Shown in pieces: positions 1 through 21,082 of a DNA stretch of 32,186 nucleotides. How positions within the stretch are numbered: position 1 is the first letter of the stretch; each line of letters opens with the position of its first letter. Both the position numbers and the translations under genes were made by a program. The DNA lies in NCBI GenBank assembly GCA_025935995.1, contig JAICUF010000020.1:1-32186 (forward strand), read 5' to 3'. The notes beneath the pieces are model-generated. The model was not told where the DNA came from and did no database searches. It saw only the letters and a program-made list of their open reading frames with translations. This DNA is from Gemmatimonadales bacterium (GTDB lineage Bacteria; Gemmatimonadota; Gemmatimonadetes; Gemmatimonadales; GWC2-71-9).

Positions 1-2139
1 CCCACCCCACTGCCCGGCGTGCTCGACCTGTCCGGTTGCGCCCGGGGGGTGCCCCCGCCCGGCCCCCGCGCGCGCGCGCCCCCCCCGCCCCCGGGGGGCG
101 CGCGCGCGGCGCCGCGACGCGTCGCGGCACTCGGCGGAAAGCCGGCGTATCACTCCGCGGACTCCCGGCGTCGTCTGAACCGGCGCCCAGCGCGCCCGCG
201 CGCGCCGCCGGAGCAGCGCCTCGACCGGACCCGCGAGCGCCGTCAGCGCGGCGTCACGCTCCGCAGTCGACAGGCTGCGCGGCGGCGCCGTGATCGCCTC
301 ATCGAGCCGGCCGCCGAGCCAGGCGGGGTCCGAGCGATGCGTGCCGCGCGCGCTGTCGACCCAGAGGAGCGCGGCTCCGGCCGGAGCAATCAGACGATCG
401 TCCTCGAGCGCGAGCCCCGCGAGCGCGCCGTGATGCGGCGACCGGACCGCCGCGCAGCCTTCCCACGCGGGAATCCCTCCAAAGCGCTCGGCGAAGAGAT
501 CGCGCCACTGCCACACCTGCGCCGCGCCGATGCCGACGAGCGCGGGTGCCCGCGCCGACCGGGCCAGCGCGCGGCACTGTCGGAGCCGTCGCTCGAGCGC
601 CGCCGGCGGATCGAAGCGAACGACCGTCACCACGGCGTGCCGCGAGCCGAGGCGGGCGGCGCGGCCCTCCCGCTGGCGCAGGCGAGCCGCGGTCCACGGG
701 AGATCGTAGTGCACCACCCGGCCCGCCGCCTGCAGGTCGAGTCCTTCCGCTGCCACATCGCTGGCGATGATCACGCGGGGTCCGTCACCCTCGGCCGCAA
801 AGCCCGCGAGCAGCGCGGCGCGGCCCAGCTTCACGGTGCCGATGCCCGCCGCTTCGCCGGTGCACCAGCCGACCGGCCCGCCCAGTCGTCGGCGAAGCCA
901 CCCGACGGTGTCACGCGATCCGGTGAAGACGAGAGTGCGCGTCCCATCGGCCAGGAGCGATCGAAGCTGGACCAGCTTCGGGTCGTCCACCGGCATGGCC
1001 GCCTGTGCGGCCTGGATGAGCGCGGGAAGTGCCGCGGCGTCGGGGAGCGCGAGATCGCAGGTATCGGCCGCCACGGTGGGCACCGCTCCCCAGAGCACGA
1101 GCTGGTCGCCGCCGGCGCCGGCCCACTGCCGGAGGGTGCGGCGGGAGAGGGCATGGCCCGCCGCGGCGGCGTCGGCGCACTGCGCCAGCAGCAGGTGGTA
1201 CCGGCGGAGCGTCGCCGCGAGCGCGGCGGGGCTCGAGGCCATGGCGCGCCAGAGCACGCCATGAATGAGCCGGGCTACTGCGCGGTCGCTCGACAGCGCC
1301 AGCCGGTCGATGGCGGCGAGAATCGGCCGCATCTCTTCCCCGAGCGGCGGGCTGCAGCGCCGGGTGCTGCGGAGGGGAATCCGTTCTCGGGCCGCGTCGG
1401 TCGCGATGACCACCGCGCCCAGCGCCGAGGGCGCAGCCCGGATGCCGGTGGCGAGCGAAGCCAGGCCCTCGAGCGCGAGCGCGTCGTCGCGGACGGCGAG
1501 GCGGAGCTGGTGCGAGAGGTCCTCGACGTGACTCACGACCGGAGTGGCCGTCAGCAGCAGCGCCGGCCGCCCCGCAAGAAACCGGGCGAGGTGGCGGTAT
1601 CGGAGGATGCCCGGGTGCCGGAAGTGATGGCTCTCGTCCACCAGGGCGAGGCCGCGCGTGTCCGTCGGGAGACTGCCGCGGCTCGCCTGCTCGTGGCTCG
1701 TGACGATCGCGTTCAGTCCGAGGCGAGCGGCGGTGGCGCGCCACTTGGCCACGAGGGACGCCGGCACGATGCAGGCGACGGGCGCCCGCTGCCAGCGCCA
1801 CGCCACTGCGAGCGCGACGTAGGTCTTGCCGGTGCCCGTGGGCTCGGCGAGCAGCGCGCCGCGATAGACTCGCAGCGCGGCGAGCACCCGGCGGTAGGCG
1901 CGCTCCTGCGAGGGCAGGAGCCAGCCCGGCGCCGGATCGGGTGCGGCGGGGAGGGCGATGCCCGCCGCCAGCGCGTGCACCACATGCGGCGCGGGAACTT
2001 CCGGTCCGGCACGAAGCGCCGTCCGGAGCGGGTGAGCGACGTCGTGCAGCGCTTCAGCGACGATCGTCGGGGTGCCGGGCGGCGGCCAGCGCATCGCGCG
2101 CGGCGGCATCGAGGCCGAGATGTCCGGCGGCGAGAGCAT
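1..2139 (-). CDS. SNF2/DEAH-type helicase, C-terminus beyond left edge
   Basis: This frame is open from 2139 down to position 1 with no stop, so the gene continues past the window. It is a superfamily 2 ATPase that would use ATP to move along or remodel DNA. Counting from 2139, it shows Walker A PTGTGKT (K near 105), a DESH box (near 168-171), TATP (near 197-200), motif V ASDVAAEGLDLQ (near 459-470) and motif VI RQREGRAARLG (near 488-498). The start at 2139 is chosen because GAGGAG lies 4 nt upstream of that ATG; it overlaps the methyltransferase end by 86 bp. In-frame ATGs at 2109 and 2094 overlap less but lack a ribosome binding site. The last 40 or so residues in the window are Arg/Gly/Ala low complexity encoded by a G/C-run palindrome, so a sequence error or nearby true end is possible. 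The gene order suggests it works with the upstream methyltransferase. Confidence 0.85.
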   Translation of the reverse strand, partial: MLSPPDISASMPPRAMRWPPPGTPTIVAEALHDVAHPLRTALRAGPEVPAPHVVHALAAGIALPAAPDPAPGWLLPSQERAYRRVLAALRVYRGALLAEPTGTGKTYVALAVAWRWQRAPVACIVPASLVAKWRATAARLGLNAIVTSHEQASRGSLPTDTRGLALVDESHHFRHPGILRYRHLARFLAGRPALLLTATPVVSHVEDLSHQLRLAVRDDALALEGLASLATGIRAAPSALGAVVIATDAARERIPLRSTRRCSPPLGEEMRPILAAIDRLALSSDRAVARLIHGVLWRAMASSPAALAATLRRYHLLLAQCADAAAAGHALSRRTLRQWAGAGGDQLVLWGAVPTVAADTCDLALPDAAALPALIQAAQAAMPVDDPKLVQLRSLLADGTRTLVFTGSRDTVGWLRRRLGGPVGWCTGEAAGIGTVKLGRAALLAGFAAEGDGPRVIIASDVAAEGLDLQAAGRVVHYDLPWTAARLRQREGRAARLGSRHAVVTVVRFDPPAALERRLRQCRALARSARAPALVGIGAAQVWQWRDLFAERFGGIPAWEGCAAVRSPHHGALAGLALEDDRLIAPAGAALLWVDSARGTHRSDPAWLGGRLDEAITAPPRSLSTAERDAALTALAGPVEALLRRRARARWAPVQTTPGVRGVIRRLSAECRDASRRRARAPRGRGGRARAGAGRGHPPGATGQVEHAGQWGG
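69..108. repeat. 16-bp perfect inverted repeat of CG alternation and C/G runs
   Basis: Positions 69-84, five CG dinucleotides then six C, are the exact reverse complement of 93-108, with an 8-nt C-rich loop. The (CG)6 run at 67-78 is of a type able to form Z-DNA. It lies inside the open frame of the helicase, where it encodes Arg/Ala/Gly/Pro repeats. It may be a real low-complexity tail, or an assembly or sequencing artefact close to a contig end. Confidence 0.6.
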
Positions 2140-5023
2140 CGAGCTCCTCATGCAGGGGCTCGCCCGCCGACATGCGGTCAGCGAGCCGGAGAAGGACTTC
2201 GTCGGCCGAGACCGACGCGGGCAGCGGCAGTGAGCCGACGGGTGCCGCGCCGAAACGCAGATAGCCCCCGGCTGCGGGCTGGGCCACGAGCGCCGCGAGT
2301 GCACGGCACCATGTGGTGTTGAGCCACGCGGCGAGCAGGCGAGCCTCCGCGGGCAGGCGCGTCGCGATCACGTAGCACGTATTGAGCGGGAGGAGACATC
2401 GGGCTTCGGCGCCGGTGAGGGCGGCCGCGGCGAGCCGGCGTGCGAGGTCGGCCCACACGACGCGGTTCGGCGCCGCGGCGGGCCCGGCCCGGAAGACCGA
2501 CCACGGCGGTCCGCCGCTGTAGTCGCTCCGCGCGCGGAGGGTCGCTTCGTGGCGCGCGAGGTAGGCGTGGGCGAGCGGCGGGAGTCGTTCGAGCGGTCGC
2601 CCGCTGTCGTCGTGCGTCCAGAGGAGCCGCCGCCGGCACGCGGTCGCAAAGGCCGCCACGTCGCGGCCGCGCACGGCCCACCGCAGGAGCTCGGGCTCGA
2701 CGGGCTCCGGTGGATCGAGGAAGATCCGGTCGGCCCCGGTCTTGAGGCCCAGCTGGCAGCGATGCCGTTCGGACAGCGGCGGATGCCGCATCGCGAGCTC
2801 GCGACCCACGCGCGCGGCATGATCATGACGTACGATCCAGGGTCCGGAGCCCAGCTCGGACTGCGCCGCGCCCGCCGCGCCGCCGGGCTCGAGCGCGCGG
2901 CGGACGGCGTGGCCCGCTGCTGGCGTGCGCCGCGTGGCGATGAGCGCCATCGGATAGGCGGTGGCCTCGAATCCCGCATCGGTGTCACCGGTGAGATCCG
3001 CCACCGCGTGGAGCGTGGCCGTCGCGGCGAGCGCGGCGCGGGCGCGCGCCGCATACCCGGCGCTCGCGAGCTTGGCCGGTACCAGCAGCGCGACCGCTCC
3101 GCCCGGCGCCGCCAGCTCGAAGCTCCGCTCGACGAAGGCGACGGACAGGTCGGGGCGGTGCGCGAAGCCGCCGCCGCCGTCGCCGCGCCACCAGCGGTAT
3201 CGCGTCGCCAGCCGCTCACGCACGGCGGGGCTCAGCGCCTCGGCACGCACCCATGGCGGGTTCCCGAGCACCAGGCCGAAGCCGCCGCTCGCGAAGACCT
3301 CGGGGAACTGTGCCTGGAAGTGGAACCACGGCAACTCGCCTTCGCGCTCGAGTCGGCGGCGGCCGGCCCGGATGGTCCGCAGCGTGGCACGCAGCCCGGC
3401 GAGCCGCTTCGCGCCGGCAGCCGGGAGTCGCGGTCTGTCACCGAAGAAGGTCGGTGAGCGAGCCGCCTCGAGCACGGCCTGCACCTCCCGCTCGACGCGC
3501 GATTCGAGTCGGGTGATGGCATCTCCGGCCGAGCGGCGCTCGGCGGAGGCCAGCTCGCGGAACCGCGCACGCTTGTCAGGCCCCGACGCCGAGATGGCGC
3601 GCCGGCGGAGGCTCCCGATGCGCCGAGCGTCCAGGGGGACGGCGTCCGCCGGCAGCGGGTCGATCAGGCTGTCGCCCTGGCGGATGAGGCAGTCGAGATT
3701 GGGAAGCGGCGCGACGCGCGCGGCATCGGCGCCCTCGTCCGCCACCACGGCGAGCCAGAGTCTGAGTTCGGCCAGCCTTACGGCCATGGCGTTCCGATCC
3801 ACGCCGAAAAGATTGCGGCGAAGGATGGCCCGCTTGGCTCGGGCGGGCCGGGCGGCATTCCGCAGGTCCGTCAACCGCTCGAGCGCGCCCAGGAGGAAGG
3901 CGCCCGAGCCGACGGCGGGGTCGAGGATCGCGAGCCGCGCGGCGATTCCGGCCGCGACCGGCTCGCGATTCCTGAGCCGCTGGTCCGCTTCCGCGTCGCC
4001 GCAGCCAAGCCGCGCGCCGACGGCGGCCGCGAGCGCCGCGTCGACCACCCGCGCGACCAGCGCGGCCGGAGTGTAGAACGTCCCGCTCTCGTGGCGCTCC
4101 GCGGGATCCATGACGCCTTCGAACACGCGGCCCAGCATGTCGGGCGCTACCGCGCCCCGCCGCCGCTCCGACACCGTGAAATGGAAGCGCTCGAAGAGTC
4201 CGTCGAATGCATCCCGCCAGGCGGCGTTGGGGAAGACCGCACGCCAGCGCCGCTCCAGCGGGTGCGGCTCGAACAGACCGCCGTTGAGAAAGGGGATCGC
4301 TCCCAGCGAGGCTGCTGCCCGGGTGCGGTCGGCGGCCGGCCGGTTGAGGGTGCCGAAGAACAGCGGGTACAGGAAGTCGCGCTGCACCTGGCGGCGGCGC
4401 GAGAGTGCGCGGTCGACCTGCCGGGCAAGGAAGTCCGCGCGGCCGTCGAGCCAGCCTTTCGACTGCACGAAGTAGAGAAAGAGCACGCGCGTGAGCTGCA
4501 CCAGCGTCACGGCATGCCGGTCGGCGGCGGGAATGCGGGACGGGAGCAGCGAGGCCATCGCACTCAGCCGCTCGCGGAAGGCGCGAAAGAAGGCGTGGCC
4601 CAGCCCTTCACCCCCGAGCGCATCGGCGACGCGCGATGCCACGCAAAGGGCGCTGCCCGAGGCGCCCCGGAGCCGCTCGAGACATGCCACGGCGACGTCA
4701 TCAGGATGGTCGAGCGCGAGATGGAGCACGGGCACCCCGCCGTACGCCGCCGCGATCGCCAACTCGCGGCTCCGGGGGTAGAATGCGAGAACGCCCATCG
4801 GCCGTCCTTCGGCCAGGTATCGGCGGGCGGTGCGGCGGGCATCGACGGCGGGCGTACCGGATTCGATGGCGAGCCAGGTGAAATCGCCGGCGCGTCCCAC
4901 CGTCGCCGCCGGCGCGGATGCCGCGCCGACATCCTCCCAGAGCGCCTCGTGACCGAGCGCGGCCACGAGGGCAGGGAGGTCCCGGAGGGATCGAACGCCG
5001 CGGAGCGCATCGGCGATGAGCAT
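2054..5023 (-). CDS. Eco57I-like N6-adenine DNA methyltransferase
   Basis: This 989-residue protein has the full motif set of gamma-class N6-adenine methyltransferases of the Eco57I/type IIG kind. GTFYTP (near 314-319) is motif X, DPAVGSGAF (near 368-376) is motif I for S-adenosylmethionine, and NPPW (588-591) is the catalytic motif IV. FGTLN and FLNGGLFEP (223-252) belong to the conserved region before motif X. The C-terminal third is probably the target-recognition part. No PD-(D/E)xK nuclease motif is evident in the 200-residue N-terminus, so cleavage by this protein alone is not supported. The ATG at 5023 is the only reasonable start, since the frame closes upstream at 5060-5062; it has no clear Shine-Dalgarno. 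The gene overlaps the downstream helicase. Known systems with such pairs include DISARM class 1 and type III BREX, but their other genes are not in view. Confidence 0.92.
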   Translation of the reverse strand: MLIADALRGVRSLRDLPALVAALGHEALWEDVGAASAPAATVGRAGDFTWLAIESGTPAVDARRTARRYLAEGRPMGVLAFYPRSRELAIAAAYGGVPVLHLALDHPDDVAVACLERLRGASGSALCVASRVADALGGEGLGHAFFRAFRERLSAMASLLPSRIPAADRHAVTLVQLTRVLFLYFVQSKGWLDGRADFLARQVDRALSRRRQVQRDFLYPLFFGTLNRPAADRTRAAASLGAIPFLNGGLFEPHPLERRWRAVFPNAAWRDAFDGLFERFHFTVSERRRGAVAPDMLGRVFEGVMDPAERHESGTFYTPAALVARVVDAALAAAVGARLGCGDAEADQRLRNREPVAAGIAARLAILDPAVGSGAFLLGALERLTDLRNAARPARAKRAILRRNLFGVDRNAMAVRLAELRLWLAVVADEGADAARVAPLPNLDCLIRQGDSLIDPLPADAVPLDARRIGSLRRRAISASGPDKRARFRELASAERRSAGDAITRLESRVEREVQAVLEAARSPTFFGDRPRLPAAGAKRLAGLRATLRTIRAGRRRLEREGELPWFHFQAQFPEVFASGGFGLVLGNPPWVRAEALSPAVRERLATRYRWWRGDGGGGFAHRPDLSVAFVERSFELAAPGGAVALLVPAKLASAGYAARARAALAATATLHAVADLTGDTDAGFEATAYPMALIATRRTPAAGHAVRRALEPGGAAGAAQSELGSGPWIVRHDHAARVGRELAMRHPPLSERHRCQLGLKTGADRIFLDPPEPVEPELLRWAVRGRDVAAFATACRRRLLWTHDDSGRPLERLPPLAHAYLARHEATLRARSDYSGGPPWSVFRAGPAAAPNRVVWADLARRLAAAALTGAEARCLLPLNTCYVIATRLPAEARLLAAWLNTTWCRALAALVAQPAAGGYLRFGAAPVGSLPLPASVSADEVLLRLADRMSAGEPLHEELDALAAGHLGLDAAARDALAAARHPDDRR

Positions 5024-5116
5024 GCCGTACGGTGGACCGATCCGGCGACGCGGCCGGCATCAACCCGCCGCACGGCACATCCAATTCCCCGCAACCCCGG
5101 CCCGGCCGGAAGGCGC

Positions 5117-6805
5117 ATGACCCCAGGGCGCCACCCACGCTCGCCGCGCTACCTGAGCCCGCTGACCATCGCCCTCGCCTACCTGGCGGTGGGCACCGCC
5201 TGGATATTCCTCTCCGATCGCGCCCTCACGCTGCTCTTTGCCGCGGGAGAGGTCGCCCGGTGGCAGACGGTGAAGGGCGTGCTTTACGTCGCCGTCACGG
5301 CGCTCCTCCTCTTCCTCCTCATGCGTCGGAGTCTGGCCGCGGTGCGGCGGAGCGAGGAGCGGCACCGGCAGATGTTCGAGACGACCACCATCGCCCTGCT
5401 GATCGACCCCGACACCGCCACCATCGAGGACGCCAACGCCGCGGCCGAGGTGTTCTATGGCCGCCCGCGCGCGGAGCTGGCAGGGCTTCCACTCTCCGAG
5501 CTCAATCCGCTGCCACCCGCCGCCATCGACGCCGCCATCGCGCGCGTGCTGGCCGGCCAGCGCGGTCACTTCCACGTCCAGCACCTCGTGCACGGCGACC
5601 AGCTGCGAGACGTCGAGATCTTCTCCAGCGTGATCGAGACCGGAGGGCGCCGGCTCATCTATTCGATTCTCTACGACCAGACCGACGCCCGGCGCGTCGA
5701 GGAGCAGCTGCGGCAGGCGCAGAAGATGGAGACGCTCGGCCAGCTCACCGGCGGCATCGCGCACGACCTCAACAACGTCCTCTCGGTGATCCTGGGGAAC
5801 GCCGAGCTCATGCGGCAGGAGCTGCCCGAGGGCCGCGATGACCTGCGCACCGATCTCGGCGAGCTGATGGCCGCAGCGCGCCGCGGCGCCGCCATGATCC
5901 GGAAGGTCGCCGGCTTCAGCCGGAGCGGCCCGCTCGAGGCCGTCGTCCTCGACCTCGGCGTCAGCGTCCGCGAGACCGCGGAGACCCTGCGCCAGCTGAT
6001 CCCTGCCGGAATCGAAGTGGTCATCGGCGCGCCGGCGGAGCCGGTCCCCGTCCGCGCCGACCGCGGCGCGCTCGAGCAGATCCTGATGAACCTCGTCACC
6101 AACGCGCGGGATGCGATGCCCGACGGCGGCCGGATCGAAATCCAGGTGGCGCGAAGCGGCGGCACCGGCTCGTTCACCGTGCGCGACAGCGGCATCGGCA
6201 TGGATGACGCGACGCGCGGCCGCATCCTCGAGCCCTTCTTCACCACCAAGCCGCCGCCGCTCGGCACCGGGCTCGGCATGGCCATGGTGGACTCGCTGGT
6301 GCGGCGGCAGGGCGGTACCCTCGCGATCGAGAGCGCGCCGGGTCGCGGGACGACCGTCACCGTCGCGCTGCCGCTGGCCGAGCGCCGCGCTGCCGAGCGG
6401 GCTCCGGCCGCACCGCCGGACGGCCTCCCCCGCGGCACGGAGACGATTCTCGTCGTGGAGGACGAAGCGGCGCTGCGCCGCGCCGCACGGCGCCTGCTGG
6501 AGCGGCTCGGCTACACCGTGCTCGATACGGCTGACGGCGAAGAGGCGCTCGGGGTCCTGCGTGAGCGCCAGGGCACGATCGATCTGGTGCTGTCGGATCT
6601 CGTGATGCCGCGGCGGGGCGGCCGCGCGCTCTACGAAGCGGCGCGGGCCGACGGGCTCGGCGTGAAGTTCCTCTTCTCGACCGGCTACGGCAGCGAGGTG
6701 CTGGAGGGGCTCGACGCGCTCGACGGGGGCGGCCCCGCGCTCATCCGGAAGCCGTGGGCCCTCGACGAGCTGGCCACGCGGCTACGGGAGGTGCTCGACG
6801 CCTGA
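5117..6805 (+). CDS. Hybrid sensor histidine kinase with PAS and receiver domains
   Basis: This is a 562-residue inner-membrane signalling protein. Two membrane helices (about 13-33 and 52-70) enclose a short periplasmic loop. A PAS domain follows (about 80-190), then HisKA with the phospho-accepting His216 in GGIAHDLNN, then HATPase_c with N329, G1 DSGIGM (357-362) and G2 GTGLGMAMV (383-391). The C-terminal receiver has acidic E448/D449, phospho-acceptor D494 in LSDLVMP, T522 and K545. The frame is open far upstream, but the start at 5117 is supported by GGAAGG just before the ATG and by the hydrophobic segment that follows. It is divergent from the methyltransferase (93-bp spacer) and its last 24 bp overlap the convergent glycosyltransferase. 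No output regulator is adjacent, so the target is unknown. Confidence 0.93.
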   Translation: MTPGRHPRSPRYLSPLTIALAYLAVGTAWIFLSDRALTLLFAAGEVARWQTVKGVLYVAVTALLLFLLMRRSLAAVRRSEERHRQMFETTTIALLIDPDTATIEDANAAAEVFYGRPRAELAGLPLSELNPLPPAAIDAAIARVLAGQRGHFHVQHLVHGDQLRDVEIFSSVIETGGRRLIYSILYDQTDARRVEEQLRQAQKMETLGQLTGGIAHDLNNVLSVILGNAELMRQELPEGRDDLRTDLGELMAAARRGAAMIRKVAGFSRSGPLEAVVLDLGVSVRETAETLRQLIPAGIEVVIGAPAEPVPVRADRGALEQILMNLVTNARDAMPDGGRIEIQVARSGGTGSFTVRDSGIGMDDATRGRILEPFFTTKPPPLGTGLGMAMVDSLVRRQGGTLAIESAPGRGTTVTVALPLAERRAAERAPAAPPDGLPRGTETILVVEDEAALRRAARRLLERLGYTVLDTADGEEALGVLRERQGTIDLVLSDLVMPRRGGRALYEAARADGLGVKFLFSTGYGSEVLEGLDALDGGGPALIRKPWALDELATRLREVLDA

Positions 6806-7939
6806 GTAGGTGCGGCCCCGCCATTCCACGCGGCGGGCGCCGCGCCAGGTCGAGCGGAGGACGATGTAGAGCAGGACCGACGCGCCCAGCGGATAGAGGA
6901 GGCCGTACGCCGGCGGGACCCGCATGCCGTGCGACATGAGCATCCAGAACCCCGCGCTCAACGCCACGGCAAGCGCGGCGGCCGTCAGCAGCGACGGCGC
7001 CCATCCCGCGAGTGCCGCCGCCAGCACGAGCGGCGGCAGCAGCCAGAAGATCACCGCCACGCCGAGCGCGACCGGGACCAGCGCGCGGCGCACGGGCTCG
7101 TCGGGGAACGAGCGCCGCCCGCCGAGGTAGACGTTCTTGGACCATCCTTCCACGAGATGCGGAAGACTCTCGTACATCCGCGTCTCCATCAGCGACTCGG
7201 CAAAGGCGAACCAGCTCCGAAGCCCCGAGCGGAAGAACGCCTGCGCGAGCGCCAGATCCTCCGCCACCTCGCCGCGCACGGCGGCATGCGTGCCCACGCG
7301 CTCGTAGGCCTCGCGGCGGGCCATGATGAACTGGCCGTTGGCGATGACGTCGCGCGCGCGGCGGGCGCGGTTCACCGCGCTCGGATGGTAGCGGAGGCCG
7401 AGGAGGAGCCAGACCTGCGGCATGACGACGCGCTCCCAGAAGCTGTCGCAGCGCTGCCGCGGCGCGATGGTGAGCATGTCGGCCCGCTCGGCCAGCAGTC
7501 CCGCGACCGCGTGCGCCAGGAGATCGGGCGCGTGGCGCGTATCGGCGTCGGTGAAGACGAGGATCTCGCCGGTCGCGGCGCGGGCCCCCTGCACGCAGGC
7601 CCACGGCTTGCCGAACCACCCGTCGGGAAGCGGCTCGCCGCGCACGAGGCGCACGCGCGGATCGGCGGCGGCGGCGCGCTCGACCTGTTCCGCGGTGTCG
7701 TCGCCGGAGCGGTCGTCCACCACGACGATCTCGAGCGGCTGGTAGGTGCTGGCGCGCACGCTCGCGAGCACCGTCGCGATGGTGCGTGATTCGTTGCGCG
7801 CGGGGATGATGAGGGAGACGGAGGGGCCGGACGGAAGAGCGCGGTAGCGCGAGAGCTCGGGCCGCCGCCGCGCGAGCCGGACGAGTCCGGCGTACGGCGC
7901 GAGCCACGGCAGCCCCGCGAGCAGGGCGCGCGGATCCAC
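6782..7939 (-). CDS. Membrane family 2 glycosyltransferase, HpnB-like
   Basis: This is a 385-residue GT-A fold glycosyltransferase. VSLIIPARNE (41-50) and VVVDDRSGDD (72-81) form the nucleotide-sugar site. DAD at 131-133 is the metal-binding motif, GEVAEDLALA (223-232) supplies the catalytic acidic residues, and W266 in EGWSKN stands in the acceptor region. Three C-terminal membrane helices (about 288-311, 314-335, 343-361) place it in the inner membrane. The segment GWFGKPWACVQGA resembles hopanoid-associated HpnB and carotenoid glycosyltransferases such as CruC, so a lipid acceptor is likely, but the actual substrate is not shown. It starts with GTG only 3 nt after the upstream sensor-domain gene, which suggests one transcript. 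Its end overlaps the convergent histidine kinase by 24 bp. Confidence 0.88.
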   Translation of the reverse strand: MDPRALLAGLPWLAPYAGLVRLARRRPELSRYRALPSGPSVSLIIPARNESRTIATVLASVRASTYQPLEIVVVDDRSGDDTAEQVERAAAADPRVRLVRGEPLPDGWFGKPWACVQGARAATGEILVFTDADTRHAPDLLAHAVAGLLAERADMLTIAPRQRCDSFWERVVMPQVWLLLGLRYHPSAVNRARRARDVIANGQFIMARREAYERVGTHAAVRGEVAEDLALAQAFFRSGLRSWFAFAESLMETRMYESLPHLVEGWSKNVYLGGRRSFPDEPVRRALVPVALGVAVIFWLLPPLVLAAALAGWAPSLLTAAALAVALSAGFWMLMSHGMRVPPAYGLLYPLGASVLLYIVLRSTWRGARRVEWRGRTYSGVEHLP

Positions 7940-7942
7940 TCG

Positions 7943-8449
7943 CTACTGCGGCTGGATGACGGCGGCCAGCTCGGCTTCGAGGGCCGCGAGCTGGCGGTCG
8001 ATCTCCCCGTGCTCGTGCTCCGTCTCGGGCACCGGCACGCCGTTCTGTGCGAAGAGCGTGGCGACGAGCGCGTCGGTGTAGCCGACGACCGCCACCGCCA
8101 CGCCGCGGTCCAGCACGCGATTGAGGCGGAGCATGATGGCCATGCCCTGCCGCGCGCGCATGGCGGCGAGCACGGGCGCCAGATTCCGGATGAGGAGCTC
8201 CCGGAGGTGCTGCAGCTCCTCGACCACCTCGCCCGCGGCCAGGCCGCGCGCGGAGGCCGAGCGGCCGTAGTGCTCGCAGACGTGGTTCCACACCGCGCGC
8301 ACCTCGCGGCGGAGCGGACCCACCATGTGAGTGAGAACGTCGATGAGCAGGCGGAACTCCCGCTCGACGGTCGCGCGCTGTATCGTGGGAGCGGCGGTGA
8401 TGCGGTCGCCCAGCGCATCGGCCCACTGCGCGACCATCGAGTCCCGCAT
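7943..8449 (-). CDS. RsbRD N-terminal-like sensor domain protein
   Basis: From the ATG at 8449 the product is 168 residues, all-helical in appearance. It resembles the globin-like RsbRD N-terminal domain that usually precedes STAS or histidine kinase domains in stress signalling. The opening MRDSMVAQWADAL fits the first helix of that fold, as does the later region around EVVEELQHLRELL. No output domain is attached, so it would act as a stand-alone sensor or partner. The frame is open up to 8650, but that part is antisense to the LD-carboxypeptidase start and reads poorly. GTG at 8464 and TTG codons further up are alternative starts; none has a strong ribosome binding site. It is followed by the glycosyltransferase after 3 nt. 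The family call is from overall pattern and is moderate. Confidence 0.65.
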   Translation of the reverse strand: MRDSMVAQWADALGDRITAAPTIQRATVEREFRLLIDVLTHMVGPLRREVRAVWNHVCEHYGRSASARGLAAGEVVEELQHLRELLIRNLAPVLAAMRARQGMAIMLRLNRVLDRGVAVAVVGYTDALVATLFAQNGVPVPETEHEHGEIDRQLAALEAELAAVIQPQ

Positions 8450-8546
8450 ATCGGCGATCACACGACCAGCGGCGAGCAACGCGGGCTGCGAAGCGCGCAA
8501 AGCCGTGCTCCAGTGCTCTGAGGACGTGGGAACATATACCGGAGGG

Positions 8547-9512
8547 ATGATGGGGTCAAAAAGAGCCGTGCGGCCGCCGAAGCTCGCGCCGGGGAGCCGC
8601 ATCGCGCTCGTCGCGCCCGCCGGTCCGCTGGTCGAGCGCGACGACGCCACCCGCGCGGCCGAGCTCTGCCGGGCGCTCGGCTGGGTGCCGACGATCGCGC
8701 CGCACGCACTCGAGAAGTACGGCTATCTCGCCGGTGGCGACGCCGCGCGGCTCTCCGACCTGAACGCCGCGCTCACCGCGCCCGACGTGGACGGCGTCTG
8801 GTGCATCCGCGGCGGCTATGGCATCACGCGGCTCCTGGACCACGTGGATTTCGCCGGCTTCGCGGCGCGGCCGCGGCCGGTCATCGGCTTCTCCGACATC
8901 ACGGCGCTCCTGCTCGCGCTCCATCACGAGACCGGCATCGTGACCTTCCACGGCCCCACCGCGCGCGCGTCGATGCCGGCCTTCACGCGCCGCCATTTCG
9001 AGCGCGCCGTCGCGGGCGTCGAGCCGCCAGGCCCGCTCGAGCGGCCGCCCGCGGCGCCCGATGTCCTCGTCCCCGCCCGCGACCGCATCGTCGCGGTCCG
9101 GAGCGGCGTGGCGGAGGGCCCGCTCGTGGGCGGCAACCTGACGCTCATCCAGTGCCTCCTCGGCACGCGCTTCATGCCGGATCTCCGCGGTGCCGTTCTC
9201 TTCCTCGAGGACGTGGGCGAAGAGGTCTACCGCATCGACCGCATGCTCGCGCACCTTCGGCTCGCGGGCGCGCTCGACGGCGTGGCCGGCGTCGCCGTCG
9301 GACGCTTCACCGAGGTCGGCCGGCGCGGCGCCGACGGGGTGCTCGGTCTCGAGGAAGTGCTCGAGAATTATCTCGCGCCGCTCGGCGTTCCCGTCGCGTG
9401 GGGGTTTCCCATCGGACACATCGACGATCAGTGGACGGTCCCCGTCGGCGTGCGCGCGCGGCTCGACGCGGGAGCAGGGTCGCTCGAGCTGCTCGAAGCG
9501 GCCGTCGCGTAG
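8547..9512 (+). CDS. LD-carboxypeptidase-like S66 peptidase
   Basis: This 321-residue protein matches the S66 family (LdcA/MccF), which cleaves the L,D bond between meso-diaminopimelate and terminal D-Ala in murein tetrapeptides, or related amides. The expected Ser-Glu-His triad is present: S116 in IGFSDITAL, E221 in FLEDVGEEVYRID and H291 in FPIGHIDDQWT. IRGGYG (87-92) is the usual loop. Length is normal for the family and no signal peptide is seen, which fits cytoplasmic murein recycling. The start is one of two adjacent ATGs at 8547 and 8550. GGAGGG at 8541-8546 is a ribosome site best placed for 8550, while TATACC at 8535-8540 could be a -10 giving a nearly leaderless message from 8547. 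The next gene begins right after its stop. Confidence 0.9.
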   Translation: MMGSKRAVRPPKLAPGSRIALVAPAGPLVERDDATRAAELCRALGWVPTIAPHALEKYGYLAGGDAARLSDLNAALTAPDVDGVWCIRGGYGITRLLDHVDFAGFAARPRPVIGFSDITALLLALHHETGIVTFHGPTARASMPAFTRRHFERAVAGVEPPGPLERPPAAPDVLVPARDRIVAVRSGVAEGPLVGGNLTLIQCLLGTRFMPDLRGAVLFLEDVGEEVYRIDRMLAHLRLAGALDGVAGVAVGRFTEVGRRGADGVLGLEEVLENYLAPLGVPVAWGFPIGHIDDQWTVPVGVRARLDAGAGSLELLEAAVA

Positions 9513-10352
9513 ATGGCGACGCCGACACGCTCGACGCAGGCGCTCGCCGGCGCCCTGGGGGAGATCTTCGTGGACGTGCGGGCCGCCGGCCGCTCCTCGC
9601 CGCGGCCGGCCGTCGTGATCGTGCACGGCTTCAAGGGGTTCAAGGACTGGGGCTTCTTCCCGCCGCTCGCGGAACGACTCGCCCGCGCGGGGTTCACCGC
9701 CGTGTCGTTCAACCTGAGCGGCAGCGGCGTCGACGCGGCGGGTGAGGCGACGCTGCCGGAGCGGTTCGCGAAGAACACGTACGGCGCCGAGCTGGCCGAT
9801 CTCGCGACGGTGCTCGACGCGCTGGAGCAGGGTCGGCTCGGCACCGCGCCGCCCGGCGGCGTCGGCCTTGTCGGGCACTCGCGCGGCGGCGGGATCGCGA
9901 TCCTCCAGACGGCGCGCGACCGGCGGATCCGCGGCCTCGTCACCTGGGCCGCGATCGCCGACATCACGCGCTGGGACGAGCCGACTCGCGCCGCGTGGCG
10001 GCGCCGGGGACACCTCGACGTCGTCAACACCCGCACCGGTCAGGTGATCCCGCTCTCCACTGCGGTGCTGGATGAGATCGAGGCGCATCCGGCGTCGCTC
10101 GACATCCTGAAGGCTGCCGCGGCGATCGAGGCCCCGTGGCTGATCGTCCACGGCACGGCCGATGAATCGGTGGCCGTGGACGACGCGCTGGCACTGAAGC
10201 AGGCCAGCGGCCGGGCCTCCACGCACCTCCTCACGATTCCCGGCGGCAACCACGGCTTCGGCGCCGGCCATCCCTGGCAACCACCCGACGACGCGCCCAT
10301 TCATCGCGTCGTCGAGGCCACCGTGCAGTGGCTGGCCACCTCGGTGATGTGA
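9513..10352 (+). CDS. Alpha/beta hydrolase
   Basis: This is a 279-residue serine hydrolase of the alpha/beta fold. HGFKGFKDW (38-46) carries the oxyanion region, S123 in GHSRGG is the nucleophile, D217 in HGTADESV is the acid and H247 in GGNHGFG is the base. The layout is like dienelactone-hydrolase or acyl-peptidase-type esterases without a cap or signal peptide, so a cytoplasmic esterase or amidase is likely. The substrate cannot be read from the sequence. The ATG follows the LD-carboxypeptidase stop without a gap and its own end overlaps the Nudix gene, so the three genes are probably co-transcribed and translationally coupled. Confidence 0.9.
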   Translation: MATPTRSTQALAGALGEIFVDVRAAGRSSPRPAVVIVHGFKGFKDWGFFPPLAERLARAGFTAVSFNLSGSGVDAAGEATLPERFAKNTYGAELADLATVLDALEQGRLGTAPPGGVGLVGHSRGGGIAILQTARDRRIRGLVTWAAIADITRWDEPTRAAWRRRGHLDVVNTRTGQVIPLSTAVLDEIEAHPASLDILKAAAAIEAPWLIVHGTADESVAVDDALALKQASGRASTHLLTIPGGNHGFGAGHPWQPPDDAPIHRVVEATVQWLATSVM

Positions 10353-10867
10353 CGGACGCCGCCGGGCTCCGCCGGGCCGCCGTCGCGCTGATCGTCGTTC
10401 CCGATCCCGAAGCCTTCCTGCTCATCCGGCGCGCCGAGCGCGCGGGCGACCCCTGGTCGGGTCATCTCGCGCTCCCCGGCGGGCGTCGCCATCCCGATGA
10501 TTCCGATCTCGTCGCGACCGCGATCCGCGAGACGCGCGAGGAAGTCGGTGTCGTCCTCGAGCGGACCAACCTCGCGCACACGCTGTCGGATGTCGTGCCG
10601 CGGACGCCCGCGCTGCCACCGCTCGCCATCCGGCCGTTCGTCTTCACGCTGGCGGAGCGGCCGCCCATCGTCCCCAATCCGGAGGTGGCCGGGACGGTGT
10701 GGGTCGAGGTCGCCGGGCTCCGGGAGCGCGTCGCGCGCGAGGAGCTGACGATGGAGCTGCGCGGCGAGCGGCGCACCTTTCCGGCGTACCGGACCGCGTT
10801 CGGCCCCGTCTGGGGGCTGACGGAGCGGATCCTGTCGCTCTATCTGGAGACCCCCGCGCGGGATTGA
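10349..10867 (+). CDS. Nudix hydrolase, CoA pyrophosphatase-like
   Basis: From the GTG at 10349 the product is 172 residues. LPGGRRHPDDSD followed by TAIRETREEVG (about 42-67) is the Nudix box in the form used by CoA pyrophosphatases (NudL/PCD1), where a D replaces the first E of the generic signature. Such enzymes split CoA or acyl-CoA to phosphopantetheine and 3',5'-ADP with Mg2+ or Mn2+. The GTG overlaps the upstream TGA as GTGA, the common coupling arrangement; a GTG at 10328 is possible but overlaps more. The next promoter begins over its stop codon, so the operon ends here. The preference for CoA is inferred from the motif only. Confidence 0.87.
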   Translation: MTDAAGLRRAAVALIVVPDPEAFLLIRRAERAGDPWSGHLALPGGRRHPDDSDLVATAIRETREEVGVVLERTNLAHTLSDVVPRTPALPPLAIRPFVFTLAERPPIVPNPEVAGTVWVEVAGLRERVAREELTMELRGERRTFPAYRTAFGPVWGLTERILSLYLETPARD

Positions 10868-10891
10868 CATCTCCTTTTGCCCCGGCAACAT
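10864..10891 (+). promoter_or_regulatory. Candidate promoter of the mntR-mntH operon
   Basis: TTGACA at 10864-10869 matches the -35 consensus exactly and overlaps the Nudix stop codon. CAACAT at 10886-10891, 16 bp downstream, is a weak -10. Transcription would begin near 10898, about 20 nt before the ATG at 10918. Confidence 0.5.
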
Positions 10892-10902
10892 TCGGATGTC
10901 CT

Positions 10903-10914
10903 AAATCCGGATTT
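10903..10914. promoter_or_regulatory. Perfect 12-bp palindrome, candidate MntR operator
   Basis: AAATCCGGATTT is a perfect dyad, lying between the predicted transcription start and the ATG of the DtxR/MntR gene. A related half site, TTCGGAT, occurs at 10891-10897. Position and symmetry suggest autoregulation. It is not a clear match to the classic IdeR/DtxR box, so the assignment rests on location. Confidence 0.45.
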
Positions 10915-10917
10915 CGC

Positions 10918-11598
10918 ATGGGCGCAACAGTTGCATCCGCCGTCACCCGATCGGTCGAAGACTATCTGAAGGCCATCTACCGACTCTCCACCGCCGGCCA
11001 GCCGGCCACGACCAGCGCGATCGCGGCGCTCCTCGAGCTGTCGGCCCCGTCGGTGAGCGGGATGGTGAAGCGCCTGTCGGAGCAGGGCCTGCTGGAGCAC
11101 GTGCCCTACCGCGGGGTGGCCCTCACCGCCGCCGGCCGGCGTCTGGCACTCCGCACCGTGCGCCGCCACCGGCTCGTCGAGTCCTACCTCGTCGCCTACC
11201 TCGGCTACAGCTGGGACACGGTGCACGACGAGGCCGAACGGCTGGAGCACGCCATCTCCGACGAGCTGGCCGAGCGGATGGCGACCGCGCTGGGGAACCC
11301 CGGCGTGGACCCGCACGGCGATCCGATCCCCACCGCCGACGGCGACATCGCCGAAGTGACCGGCATGCCACTCAGCGATGTGCCGGAAGGCGTTGCCGTC
11401 GAGGTACGGCGGGTGAACGAGCACGACGCCGAGCGGCTCCGCTATCTCGCCTCGCTCGGCCTCGTGCCAGGTGCGGTGGTCACGGTGACGGGGCGCCTGC
11501 CGTTCGATGGCCCGATCACGCTGAGCACTCCGGCGGGAACCCACGCCGTCGGACCCGGCCTCGCCGCCGACATCGTCTGCTCGCGCGCCGCGGAATGA
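10918..11598 (+). CDS. mntR: DtxR-family manganese-type transcriptional regulator
   Basis: This is a 226-residue metal-dependent repressor. A winged helix (about 10-75) is followed by the dimerisation/metal domain and a C-terminal FeoA/SH3-like domain (about 150-226) that Bacillus MntR lacks. Metal ligands can be aligned: D15 in VEDYLKAIY sits where iron-type DtxR has Met10, and E107 in DEAERLEH sits where it has Cys102. Together with H84, E88, H103, E110 and H111, this is the manganese-selective pattern. It overlaps mntH by ATGA, so it probably represses its own operon when Mn2+ is ample. The ATG at 10918 has no strong ribosome site, but it opens the conserved N-terminus and the frame further up runs through the Nudix gene. 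Confidence 0.9.
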
Positions 11599-12953
11599 AC
11601 GCCGCCTCCACGCCCCCGATCGAGGAGCTCTCGGGCTGGCGTCGCCCGCGCCGCTCGCCCAGCCTTCCGGAATCGCACCGGAGCGTCCGCGTGCCCACCG
11701 GCGCCGGCTTCTGGCGGAAGGCGCTCGCCTTTGCCGGTCCCGGCTACATGGTGGCGGTGGGCTACATGGATCCGGGCAACTGGGCCACCGATCTCGCCGG
11801 CGGCGCCCGCTTCGGCTACACGCTGGTGAGCGTGGTCCTGCTCTCCAACCTGATGGCCATCCTGCTCCAGTCACTCGCGCTCAAGCTGGGAATCGTGACC
11901 GGCCGCGACCTGGCCCAGGCCTGCCGCGACCACTACTCGCGCCCGGTGAGCTTCGCGCTCTGGGTGCTCTGCGAGATCGCCATCGCCGCGTGCGACTTGG
12001 CCGAGGTGATCGGGTCGGCCATCGCGCTCAACCTGCTGTTCGGGATTCCGCTGCTATGGGGCGTGTGCCTCACCGCGGTGGATGTGCTCGCGATCCTGCT
12101 CCTCCAGCACCGCGGCTTCCGCTATCTCGAGGCCTTCGTCGTGGTGCTGGTGGCGACGATCGCCGCCTGCTTCGCGGTCGAGCTCCTGCTCGCGCGCCCC
12201 GACTTCGGCGGCGTAGCGCGCGGCCTCGTGCCGACGACGGAGATCCTCCGGAATCCCGCCATGCTCTACATCGCCATCAGCATCCTCGGCGCCACCGTGA
12301 TGCCGCACAACCTCTACCTGCACTCCTCGATCGTGCAGACGCGCGGGATCGGCCCCGACTCCGCAGCGAAGCGCGAGGCGATCCGCTTCGCCACCTTCGA
12401 CTCCACCGTGGCACTCCTCTTCGCCTTCTTCATCAACGCGGCGATCCTCGTGCTCGCGGCCGCCACGTTCCACACGAGCGGCAACCGGTCCGTCGCCGAC
12501 ATCGGCGATGCCTACCATCTGCTGACGCCGCTCCTCGGCACCACCGTGGGGAGCGTGCTCTTCGCGGTCGCGCTGCTCGCGTCCGGCCAGAACTCGACCA
12601 TCACCGGCACCCTCGCCGGCCAGATCGTGATGGAGGGATTCCTCGACATCCGGCTGCCGCCCTGGCTCCGGCGGATGATCACGCGCCTCATCGCGATCAT
12701 TCCCGCGGTGATCGTCACGGCGCTCTACGGAGAGCGCGGCACGGCCTCCCTCCTCATCCTGAGCCAGGTGATCCTGAGTCTCCAGCTCTCGTTCGCCGTG
12801 GTGCCGCTGGTGCAGTTCACGTCGGATCGCCGCAAGATGGGCGGGTTCGTGAACCGACCCTGGGTGATGGGGGCGGCGTGGCTCGTCACCGCCGCCATCG
12901 TCGGCCTCAACCTGTGGCTCCTCGTGGGCGTCGCGCGCGAGTGGCTCGCCTGA
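11595..12953 (+). CDS. mntH: Nramp-family Mn2+/H+ symporter MntH
   Basis: This 452-residue inner-membrane protein has about 11 helices. The transport site is complete: D59-P-G-N62 in helix 1 and A233/M236 in ATVMPH of helix 6, which bind the transition metal in Nramp structures. [14 protein letters not shown] (133-146) is another family hallmark. It imports Mn2+ (also Fe2+ or Cd2+) with protons. Its ATG lies inside the mntR stop (ATGA), so the two are translationally coupled. The 30-residue basic N-terminal tail is normal for bacterial homologues. The next gene has its own promoter, so the operon appears to be just mntR-mntH. Confidence 0.95.
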
Positions 12954-12981
12954 GAGGGCACGTGCAGGAGGGCGCCGCGGC

Positions 12982-13009
12982 TTGACTCCCGCCGCCGCGG
13001 CGCTATATC
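12982..13009 (+). promoter_or_regulatory. Promoter for the M16 peptidase gene
   Basis: TTGACT at 12982-12987 and TATATC at 13004-13009 are separated by 16 bp, in a region that is otherwise nearly pure G/C. Transcription would start around 13016 and give a leader of about 30 nt before the ATG at 13048. Confidence 0.6.
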
Positions 13010-13047
13010 AGCTCAGTCCCCCGCATTCCACCACCAGCCGAGGTCCG

Positions 13048-15858
13048 ATGTCACACGCCAGACGCGCCGCGTCGCTTCGCGCGGCGGCCTTCTCGACCGC
13101 GTTCGCCTTTACCCTCCTCAGCCTGAGCCCCATGGGGGTACTGGCGCAGGGCCGCGCGACCCGCAGCGCCGCGGCGCTGCCGCAGCTCACGCGGGTGACG
13201 TCGGTCGAGGGGATCACCGAGTACTCGCTCCCGAACGGGCTCCGGGTCCTCCTCTTTCCCGACCAGTCCAAGCCGACCACGACGGTCAACATCACCTACA
13301 TGGTGGGCTCGCGGCACGAGGGCTACGGCGAGACCGGCATGGCGCACCTGCTCGAGCACATGGTGTTCAAGGGGACGCCGCGCCATCCGAACATCCCGCA
13401 GGAGCTCACCGAGCACGGCGCGCAGCCGAACGGCACCACCTGGCTCGACCGGACCAACTACTTCGAGACCTTCAGCGCGACCGACACCAACCTCGTCTGG
13501 GCCCTCGACCTCGAGGCCGACCGGATGGTGCACAGCAACATCGCGAAGAAGGATCTGCAGTCCGAGTTCACCGTCGTGCGGAACGAGTTCGAGTCGGGGG
13601 AGAACGATCCCGGCAGCGTGCTCATGGAGCGCACCATCTCCACCGCCTTCCTCTGGCACAACTACGGCCACTCCACCATCGGCGCGCGGTCCGACATCGA
13701 GCAGGTCCCGATCGAGCGGCTGCAGGCGTTCTACCGGAAGTACTACCAGCCCGACAACGCAATGCTCGTGATCGCGGGCAAGTTCAACGAGAAGCGCGCC
13801 ATGCAGCTCGTGCGCGAGAAGTTCGGCCGGGTGCCGCGGCCCGCGCGCACCGGCGTCATGCAGATCTACCCCACCTACACGGCCGAGCCGACGCAGGATG
13901 GCGAGCGGGCGGTGACGCTGCGCCGCGTGGGCGACGTGCAGGTGATCAACGCCGTCTACCACGTGCCGGCGGGCTCCCATCCCGACTACGCCGCGGTGGA
14001 CGTGCTCAGCAGCGTCCTCGGCGAAGCGCCGGCGGGGCGCCTCTACAAGGCGCTGGTCGAGACGAAGAAGGCCGCCAGCGTCTTCGCGTTCGGATTCCAG
14101 CTCCGCGAGCCGGGTGTGCTGATTCTCGGCGCGCAGGTGCGGCAGGAAGACCCGGTGGACAGCGCGCGGGTCGCGATGCTCCGGACCGTCGCCGACCTGG
14201 CCACGACGCCGCCGACCGCGGAGGAAGTGGACCGCGCCAGGACGGCAATGCTCCGGGGCATCGAGCTCTCGCTCAACAACTCCGCCCGCATCGGCCTCGA
14301 GCTCAGCGAGTGGCAGTCGATGGGCGACTGGCGGCTCCTCTTCCTCAACCGCGACCGGATCCGCGCGGTCACGCCGGACGACGTGAAGCGCGTCGCCGCC
14401 GCCTACCTCAAGCCCGCGAACATGACGCTCGGGATCTTCGTCCCGACGCCGAAGCCGGAACGGAGCGAGATCCCCGCCACGCCCGACGTCGCGGCGCTGG
14501 TGAAGGACTACAAGGGCGACACCGCCCGCTCGGTGGGCGAGGCGTTCGACCCGTCGCCGGCCGTGATCGAGCAGCGGACGACGCGGAGCGCGCTCCCGAG
14601 CGGGCTCAAGGTGGCGCTCCTGCCCAAGAAGACGCGGGGCGGCACCGTCATCGCGACCATGAACCTGCACTTCGGCAGCGAGCAGAGTCTCATGAACCGC
14701 GCCGTGGCGGCCGACGTCGCTGGCGACATGCTGATGCGCGGCACGAAGACGCGGACGCGCCAGCAGATCCGCGACGAGCTCGACCGGCTCAAGGCCAACG
14801 TCAGTCTCAGCGGGTCCGCCACCGGCGCGTTCGTCCGGATCGAGACGGTGCGCGAGAACCTGCCGGCGGTGCTCGCGGTCGTCGGCGACGTCCTGATGCA
14901 TCCCGCCTTCGACGCGAAGGAGTTCGACGAGCTCCGCCGCGAGAACCTCGCGAGCCTGGAGGAGCAGAAGTCCGAGCCGACGTCGCTCGGCTCGATCGCC
15001 TTCAGCCGCTACATCAATCCGTGGCCCAAGGGCCACCCGCGCTACGTGGCCACGCTGGAGGAGCAGGTGGCCGACTACACGGCGGTGACGCTCGATGACG
15101 CCCGGAGGTTCTACGACGACTTCTACGGCGCGTCGAACGGCGAGATCGCCGTCGTCGGCGACTTCGATCAGGCCGCCATCACGGCCCAGCTGAATCAGCT
15201 CTTCGGCAGCTGGAAGAGCGCCCAGCCGTTCACGCGGGTGCGGAGCGTCTACCGCGACCGCCCGTCGACGACGGTGTCGATCGAGACGCCCGACAAGGCG
15301 AATGCCTTCTTCCTCGCCGGGCTCAACCTGCCGGTGCGGGACGACGATCCGAGCTACCCCGCGCTGGTCCTGGGCAACTACATGCTGGGAGGTGGGTTCC
15401 TGAACTCGCGGCTCGCGACGCGGATCCGGCAGAAGGAGGGCATCAGCTACGGGGTGGGCTCCGGCCTCTCGGCCGCGCCGCAGGACAGCGCGGGGATGTT
15501 CCAGGCCTACGCCATCTACGCGCCGGAGAACGCGGCGCGGCTCGAGGCGGCGTTCCGCGAGGAGCTGACCCGCGCGATCCGCGACGGGTTCACCGCCGAA
15601 GAGATCAACAAGGCGCGGGAAGGCTACCTGCAGCAGCGCCAGCTGCAGCGGGCGCAGGATGGCTCGCTGGCCTCGCTCCTGGCCAACGACCTCTTCCTCG
15701 GGCGCACGCTGGCCTATGACACGCGCTTCGAGCAGCGCATCACCGCGCTCACGCCGGCCGAGCTCAACGCGGCGATGCGGCGCTACATCGATCCGTCGAA
15801 GGTCGTGATCGTGAAGGCGGGCGACTTCGCGAAGAAGGCGCCGCCGGCCCAGCCCTGA
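13048..15858 (+). CDS. Secreted M16 zinc metallopeptidase, two fused halves
   Basis: This 936-residue product begins with a Sec signal peptide (about 1-34, ending VLAQG), so it acts in the periplasm or outside. The N-terminal M16 half has the inverted zinc motif H100-L-L-E103-H104 and the third ligand E180 in VVRNEFE. The C-terminal half, from about 530, has the same fold without HXXEH (ADVAGDMLMRGTK in that place) and keeps the substrate-side pair region RIRQKEGISYG. This is the usual active/inactive arrangement of pitrilysin- or PqqL-type peptidases that degrade peptides in a closed chamber. ATG 13048 is preferred because GAGGT precedes it and the signal peptide follows. It is transcribed alone from its own promoter and followed by a hairpin. 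Confidence 0.94.
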   Translation: MSHARRAASLRAAAFSTAFAFTLLSLSPMGVLAQGRATRSAAALPQLTRVTSVEGITEYSLPNGLRVLLFPDQSKPTTTVNITYMVGSRHEGYGETGMAHLLEHMVFKGTPRHPNIPQELTEHGAQPNGTTWLDRTNYFETFSATDTNLVWALDLEADRMVHSNIAKKDLQSEFTVVRNEFESGENDPGSVLMERTISTAFLWHNYGHSTIGARSDIEQVPIERLQAFYRKYYQPDNAMLVIAGKFNEKRAMQLVREKFGRVPRPARTGVMQIYPTYTAEPTQDGERAVTLRRVGDVQVINAVYHVPAGSHPDYAAVDVLSSVLGEAPAGRLYKALVETKKAASVFAFGFQLREPGVLILGAQVRQEDPVDSARVAMLRTVADLATTPPTAEEVDRARTAMLRGIELSLNNSARIGLELSEWQSMGDWRLLFLNRDRIRAVTPDDVKRVAAAYLKPANMTLGIFVPTPKPERSEIPATPDVAALVKDYKGDTARSVGEAFDPSPAVIEQRTTRSALPSGLKVALLPKKTRGGTVIATMNLHFGSEQSLMNRAVAADVAGDMLMRGTKTRTRQQIRDELDRLKANVSLSGSATGAFVRIETVRENLPAVLAVVGDVLMHPAFDAKEFDELRRENLASLEEQKSEPTSLGSIAFSRYINPWPKGHPRYVATLEEQVADYTAVTLDDARRFYDDFYGASNGEIAVVGDFDQAAITAQLNQLFGSWKSAQPFTRVRSVYRDRPSTTVSIETPDKANAFFLAGLNLPVRDDDPSYPALVLGNYMLGGGFLNSRLATRIRQKEGISYGVGSGLSAAPQDSAGMFQAYAIYAPENAARLEAAFREELTRAIRDGFTAEEINKAREGYLQQRQLQRAQDGSLASLLANDLFLGRTLAYDTRFEQRITALTPAELNAAMRRYIDPSKVVIVKAGDFAKKAPPAQP

Positions 15859-20417: not shown

Positions 20418-21082
20418 GCGTCGCCGTCGCGGCCGAGGTCACGCGCGACTACTCGATGAGCGGCGGCGTCGTACATGCGCTCCGCGGGGTCTCGCTCGCG
20501 ATCGAGCCGGGCGAGTACGTGGCGATCGCGGGTCCGTCCGGAAGCGGCAAGTCCACCCTGCTGCAGCTTCTCGGCGGGATCGACCTGCCGACATCGGGCC
20601 ACGTCGAGATCCTGGGCACGCGCCTCGACTCGCTGGGCGACCGCGCCCTCACGCGGCTTCGGCTCCTCCGCCTCGGCTTCATCTTTCAGCGCTTCCACCT
20701 GCTGCCGGTCCTCACGGCGCTCGAGAACGTCGAGCTGCCGATGGCCGAAGCGGGCGTGCCGCGGGACGAGCGGCGTGAGCGCGCGCGGTCGCTGCTCGAC
20801 TATGTGGGACTCCTCGACCGCGCCGCGCACCGTCCGGTGCAGCTCTCGGGCGGGGAGATGCAGCGCGTGGCCATCGCGCGCGCCCTCGCGAACCGTCCCG
20901 CGCTCATCCTCGCCGACGAGCCGACCGGCGAGCTGGACGCCGCGACCGGAGCGGGAATCCTGGCCCTCTTCCGCCGGCTGACCGCCGACGGCAGCACCCT
21001 CGTCGTCGTGACGCACGATGAGCGGCTCGCCGCCGAGGCCGGGCGCGTCGTGCACATGCTCGATGGCCGGGTGCGCGGCTGA
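20414..21082 (+). CDS. LolD/MacB-type ABC transporter ATPase (AttE-like)
   Basis: This 222-residue cytoplasmic ATPase has Walker A GPSGSGKST (36-44), Q-loop FIFQRFHLLPVLTALENV, signature LSGGEMQRVAIARAL, Walker B LILADEPTGELD and the switch His in VVVTHDE. The DEPTGELD ending and the FHLLP segment are typical of the LolD/MacB/FtsE branch, which pairs with FtsX-like permeases. GTG 20414 overlaps the permease stop, and its own stop shares bases with the next ATG (TGATG). It energises the two permeases before it. Confidence 0.95.
   Translation: MSVAVAAEVTRDYSMSGGVVHALRGVSLAIEPGEYVAIAGPSGSGKSTLLQLLGGIDLPTSGHVEILGTRLDSLGDRALTRLRLLRLGFIFQRFHLLPVLTALENVELPMAEAGVPRDERRERARSLLDYVGLLDRAAHRPVQLSGGEMQRVAIARALANRPALILADEPTGELDAATGAGILALFRRLTADGSTLVVVTHDERLAAEAGRVVHMLDGRVRG

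Follow-up and report, generated by a model that had tools for sequence, protein, structure and literature searches.

When an adenine methyltransferase gene and an overlapping helicase gene lie at the very end of a contig, are they the visible part of a larger defence system, or are they complete in themselves? The question is posed by a stretch of 32,186 bp (hereafter the window) that makes up one entire contig (C139) of a Gemmatimonadales genome (G000, 87% complete). A preliminary description of this DNA had taken the two genes for a partial defence module, to be compared with class 1 DISARM and type III BREX, or else a smaller or rearranged system. As the window is a whole contig, the region to its left was read through relatives. 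The assignment to Gemmatimonadales, within the Gemmatimonadota, agrees with the named relatives of the methyltransferase.

Anatomy of the methyltransferase-helicase pair

The upstream gene of the pair (positions 2054..5023, minus strand) encodes an Eco57I-type N6-adenine DNA methyltransferase (MTase) of 989 amino acids with a C-terminal target-recognition region. The protein matches the Pfam families Eco57I (1.8e-17) and N6_Mtase (5.9e-9), and its motif I (DPAVGSGAF, residues 368-376) and NPPW motif (residues 588-591) are kept, as DPAxGSGAF and NPPW, across an alignment of 28 homologues. The downstream gene (1..2094, minus strand) starts with an ATG at 2094, 41 bp inside the 3′ end of the MTase gene and in an overlapping frame. 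It encodes a SNF2/RapA-like SF2 helicase/translocase that matches Helicase_C (3.1e-15) and ResIII (7.6e-10) of Pfam and belongs to an alignment of homologues in which GxGKT, DEAH and QRxGRxxR are conserved. Because the catalytic motifs of both proteins are conserved, both activities are probably intact. The 3′ part of the helicase gene is cut off at the contig end; full-length helicases in relatives run to ~720-830 amino acids, so the window helicase is without its C-terminus. Its last ~35 residues are unlike those of relatives in any frame. Positions 1-110 of the window are a contig end with long G/C runs, where an assembly error is likely.

Upstream of the MTase, on the opposite strand, lies a divergent gene for a PAS/His-kinase/receiver protein (5117-6805, plus strand). 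The layout given in the preliminary description, with an MTase, a helicase that overlaps it on the same strand and is open to the edge, and a divergent kinase, is therefore borne out by Pfam matches, motifs and the 41-bp overlap. Two further proteins of the window have no Pfam match at all (21082-22506, plus strand, 474 amino acids; 23974-26568, minus strand, 864 amino acids). A tRNA-Arg (tcg) called by ARAGORN at 3217-3315 (minus strand) falls inside the coding strand of the MTase and is probably spurious.

Neither Pfam nor the homologue alignments revealed a conserved nuclease motif in the MTase or the helicase, in agreement with the preliminary description, and the window helicase carries neither a PLD nor a PD-(D/E)XK nuclease. 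The AF2 model of the MTase (pLDDT 87.5) has its closest PDB fold in CamA, followed by BrxX, BseCI and MmeI. The N-terminal domain of the MTase, ~105 amino acids long, is devoid of catalytic residues. This domain was considered as an active PD-(D/E)XK nuclease on account of its modelled α-β-β-β-α-β topology and was rejected, as it displays no conserved acidic or lysine residues; such residues are absent from this position in the MTases of related systems also. For the helicase, a complete homologue from L066 was modelled with AF2 (pLDDT 83.9). RapA is the closest solved protein to it both in fold and in sequence, with a low TM-score over the full chain (0.35).

Distribution, inheritance and target recognition

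Of 61 related genomes searched, 52 carry both genes, eight have neither, and one has only the MTase, at a contig edge (Fisher p 3e-9 for co-occurrence). About 40 loci, read over as much as 20 kb, have the helicase gene after the MTase gene on the same strand, and the spacing between the two is −119 to +41 bp in almost every case. Such adjacency, repeated in dozens of genomes, means that the pairing is not due to chance and, as the two genes adjoin almost everywhere, we regard them as a complete two-gene unit. At one locus (L037 of genome G051, 3958-15772), ~11.8 kb separates the helicase from an MTase without its C-terminal part; the intervening stretch is lower in GC (0.615 vs 0.66), which gives the impression of an element inserted into the pair.

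The flanks of the pair change between families while the pair stays. In relatives, the helicase gene is followed by housekeeping genes: a HAD phosphatase of the Gph/PpaX kind most commonly comes first, with sigma/anti-sigma genes and others behind it, and the genes 5′ of the MTase include a glycosyltransferase, an LD-carboxypeptidase, a Nudix protein and others (product names were read from sequence, with Pfam run on part of them only). Genomes in which the Gph/PpaX-like phosphatase comes immediately after the helicase are numerous and belong to different families (for example, L051, L064 and L066). The search for nearby pglZ, DUF1998, PLD and nuclease genes that the preliminary description had proposed was carried out in relatives, and only housekeeping genes were encountered beyond the helicase: none of drmA/B/C, pglZ, brxC/F or a nuclease gene was seen on inspection of their flanks. 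Homologous pairs, which the same description had suggested collecting, proved to be neighbours almost everywhere, but none of the loci examined placed them in a defence island.

In a set of 146 Gemmatimonadales genomes, nearly all of which are at least 90% complete, the MTase profile is found in 130 (~89%), nearly always in single copy, compared to eight of 103 genomes from elsewhere in the phylum. The 16 Gemmatimonadales genomes that lack the pair are mostly small; the median size is 2.75 Mb for genomes without the pair vs 3.7 Mb for those with it (p 7e-6). As such genomes exist, the pair is dispensable.

Both genes follow the descent of their hosts. Comparison with RpoB (sequences selected by the RHGNKG motif) gave a Mantel r of 0.90 for the MTase and 0.93 for the helicase in 37 genomes, values that no permutation reached. 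Fourteen of the 15 strong splits of the MTase tree are present in the RpoB tree and none is in strong conflict with it; two strong splits of the helicase tree do conflict. Since the two trees match that of RpoB, the pair is inherited vertically. Sequence change in the MTase within families keeps step with that in its housekeeping neighbours (47% vs 47% for the HAD phosphatase, 49% vs 49% for GT2); between families, the MTase is somewhat faster than most of them. The helicase outpaces the neighbours tested (37% within families), which would also fit a conflict with phages. Being vertical, near-universal in the order and outside defence islands in the loci examined, the pair is unlike a mobile defence module. 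The reading as a partial defence module is abandoned here, while the suggestion of a smaller system in the preliminary description is upheld in the form of a complete two-gene pair.

The target-recognition region of the MTase was compared at matched catalytic identity (0.35-0.42). In a common alignment, its identity is 0.36 in Gemmatimonadales vs 0.21 in homologues from other phyla, although this alignment is anchored on the window and favours its kin by construction; pairwise alignments gave a difference of the same sign and smaller size (0.38 vs 0.30). The lowest deciles of the pairwise identities are 0.34 and, in other phyla, 0.22, the latter being the level of shuffled sequences. The controls were drawn from many phyla, so that their mixed origin may explain part of the difference. 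Because the region is more conserved than in other-phyla homologues, the comparison suggests one stable target motif for the MTase. Among cyanobacterial relatives, the MTases of Nostoc and Brasilonema (L092, L093) share 88% identity in catalytic columns and only 48% in target-recognition columns, a pattern that we read as a recent change of specificity.

Probable loss of the nuclease

In the nearest relatives from other phyla (L095-L145), the MTases are mostly found close to SNF2 helicases that carry an N-terminal PLD domain. PLDc_2 was matched in all eight such helicases scanned, and an alignment of ten PLD-helicases shows no variation at H142, K144 and GSSN, giving an active-looking HxK/GSSN site. 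PADLOC labels these helicases HKD+Snf2 and their MTases type IIG. In both trees, a Gemmatimonadota-centred clade, which includes a few Acidobacteriota, Myxococcales and deltaproteobacterial members, stands apart from the PLD-helicase systems with support of 1.0 and 0.998.

Three Gemmatimonadota of a sister lineage (f4; L096, L150, L151) carry a gene of ~180 codons between the MTase and the helicase. Its product has no convincing Pfam or PADLOC match, and it aligns over its whole length with the PLD domains of the relatives (hhalign 98.3%, E 1.1e-14). In each of the three, other residues stand in place of the catalytic H, K and GSSN. In Gemmatimonadales, only a short stretch precedes the Q motif and Walker A of the helicase, and the PLD domain is absent. 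In the helicase tree, which is midpoint rooted and has partly weak inner nodes, Gemmatimonadales branch off after the lineages whose N-terminal part is dead or altered. The simplest reading of these sequences would be a stepwise disarming of a restriction-type system; as the linked nuclease gene of the sister lineage persists without its catalytic residues, cutting would have been lost before the gene was.

Helicases of the f9 lineage and of Kutchimonas possess an N-terminal extension of ~190 amino acids with a conserved RRPxVLxxLRxxF (L146:11382-11921, L148:10012-10611, L072:3720-4319, L076:11952-12491). We considered this extension as a remnant of the PLD domain and found no support for it (hhalign 0.8%; 19% to the sister-lineage gene).

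Role of the pair and its relation to known systems

Combining these findings, we propose, with a probability of roughly one half, that the two genes form a complete unit, a resident and vertically inherited core pair of Gemmatimonadales that serves host regulation or genome upkeep. The observations behind this proposal are the anatomy, pairing and co-loss of the genes, their vertical descent, the absence of a nuclease, the dead PLD remnant in the sister lineage, and the conservation of target recognition. The ancestor would have been a restriction-type system composed of an MTase and a PLD-nuclease/SNF2 helicase; the active site of the nuclease would have decayed first, and the nuclease itself would have disappeared later. 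The present-day MTase would methylate (m6A) one conserved motif across the host genome. The RapA-like motor may act with the MTase at this motif, where it would sense unmethylated or hemimethylated DNA and displace or remodel proteins, as RapA-type motors do. The role of the pair would then lie in host regulation or genome upkeep, with DNA no longer being cut. We favour such a role over exclusion because of the vertical and near-universal retention of the pair, its housekeeping context and its stable target recognition. The dispensability of the pair, the fast helicase, the somewhat raised rate of the MTase between families and the defensive ancestry speak against it, and an exclusion system devoid of a nuclease could also be inherited vertically.

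That the pair amounts to a core epigenetic system of the whole order, with an adenine MTase always coupled to a dedicated SNF2 remodelling motor and an origin in the stepwise disarming of a PLD-nuclease restriction system, has in our estimate just short of even odds. To our knowledge, core adenine methylases are established for few lineages, and all of them work alone. If the proposal is true, an entire order of bacteria possesses a core adenine methylase that is linked to a motor resembling a chromatin remodeller. The sister lineage with its dead nuclease would be a preserved intermediate, allowing the passage from restriction to host use to be traced gene by gene. The literature collection searched returned no description of such an MTase-helicase pair and no papers on Gemmatimonas methylomes.

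A possible, if less probable, role for the pair is resident defence in which the MTase marks self and the motor blocks replication or expression of unmethylated incoming DNA with no cutting, a mode that has been proposed for BREX. The relationship of both proteins to defence families is real, as had been supposed from the outset: DrmMI, type IIG and DrmD models are their best matches, and their ancestry is restriction-like. The sister relationship of the pair's clade to PLD-nuclease restriction-type systems, the fast evolution of the helicase and the loss of the pair from small genomes also agree with defence. Against it stand the vertical descent, presence in ~89% of the order and housekeeping surroundings of the pair, as well as a target-recognition region free of rapid change; moreover, DUF1998 and DUF499, the markers of DISARM and Hma systems, each occur in only one of the 61 genomes. 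It is unlikely that the pair belongs to a restriction-modification system with an unlinked nuclease gene, the product of which would work in trans with the motor in the manner of R.CglI and H.CglI. Such a division of labour has precedents in CglI and NgoAVII, in which a separate nuclease protein acts with a helicase-like ATPase (PMC4267653, PMC5737866), but the early loss of the catalytic residues in the sister lineage and the lack of a linked nuclease in Gemmatimonadales flanks are at odds with it.

That the pair is a fragment of class 1 DISARM, of type III BREX or of an Hma/BREX-related system whose remaining genes lie beyond the contig end is very improbable: these systems do share an MTase and a SNF2 helicase, and the pair matches DrmMI (102 bits) and DrmD (71-82 bits) weakly, but in relatives the missing side is occupied by housekeeping genes, and the genome's own PglZ-domain match (G000:C80:1540-2121), like those of 50 relatives, is probably of another kind. 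PglZ-domain matches occur in 51 of the 61 genomes, mostly as ~524-aa frames on contigs other than that of the pair; judged by size, this near-core protein of the order is probably PorX, and we rejected it as a BREX PglZ, none of which is found in the flanks of the pair. DUF1998/DrmB (PF09369) and DUF499 (PF04465) are absent from the window's own genome (87% complete), and inspection by eye of the flanking gene clusters in relatives revealed no BrxC or BrxF. All matches to defence models lie far under the curated cut-offs where such exist, including those to PglX models and that to the NCBIfam DrmD model (82 bits vs a cut-off of 610, scored on the truncated protein). We therefore regard the pair as probably a resident system, either epigenetic or acting by exclusion without cutting, rather than a broken piece of a mobile defence island, and it carries a warning that 'MTase plus helicase' matches to DISARM or BREX models do not by themselves denote partial defence systems.

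With class 1 DISARM, the pair shares an adenine MTase of the DrmMI group and a SNF2 helicase of the DrmD group, but it has no DrmA, DrmB or DrmC (PLD) beside it and no DUF1998 in its genome. Type III BREX (PglXI/BrxXI, BrxHII) likewise joins an MTase to a RapA-like Swi2/Snf2 helicase, but no BREX-type PglZ accompanies the pair. The same combination occurs in the BREX-related systems centred on Hma/DUF499 (PMC12839542), whose DUF499 ATPase is missing here. As these defining genes are missing, we assign the pair to none of the three. CglI and NgoAVII resemble it in that a helicase-like ATPase works with an MTase, and a PLD nuclease of the RE_NgoFVII kind is found in the pair's relatives, where it is ancestral; their separate nuclease is active, however, and the pair has none. 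RapA, a SNF2 ATPase that recycles RNA polymerase, is closest to the helicase in solved sequence and fold but, as far as we know, is not linked to any methyltransferase.

The nearest kin of the pair in both trees are the PLD(HKD)-SNF2 + MTase systems (PADLOC C3a139 'HKD+Snf2' with a type IIG-like MTase; L099, L105, L120), in which a homologous MTase and helicase lie close together. These differ in having an intact-looking N-terminal PLD domain (HxK, GSSN), a scattered distribution over phyla and a more variable target recognition, whereas the Gemmatimonadales pair is nuclease-free and vertical. Solitary core MTases (CamA of C. difficile, M.Hpy99XIX, CcrM) are likewise nuclease-free adenine MTases kept across a taxon, and the MTase of the pair, with its catalytic motifs intact and no linked nuclease, is conserved and vertically inherited across the order; they have no obligatory SNF2 partner, however, whereas the MTase of the pair always retains its motor. 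The pair is a nuclease-less branch of the MTase + PLD-SNF2 family with a distribution like that of the solitary core MTases.
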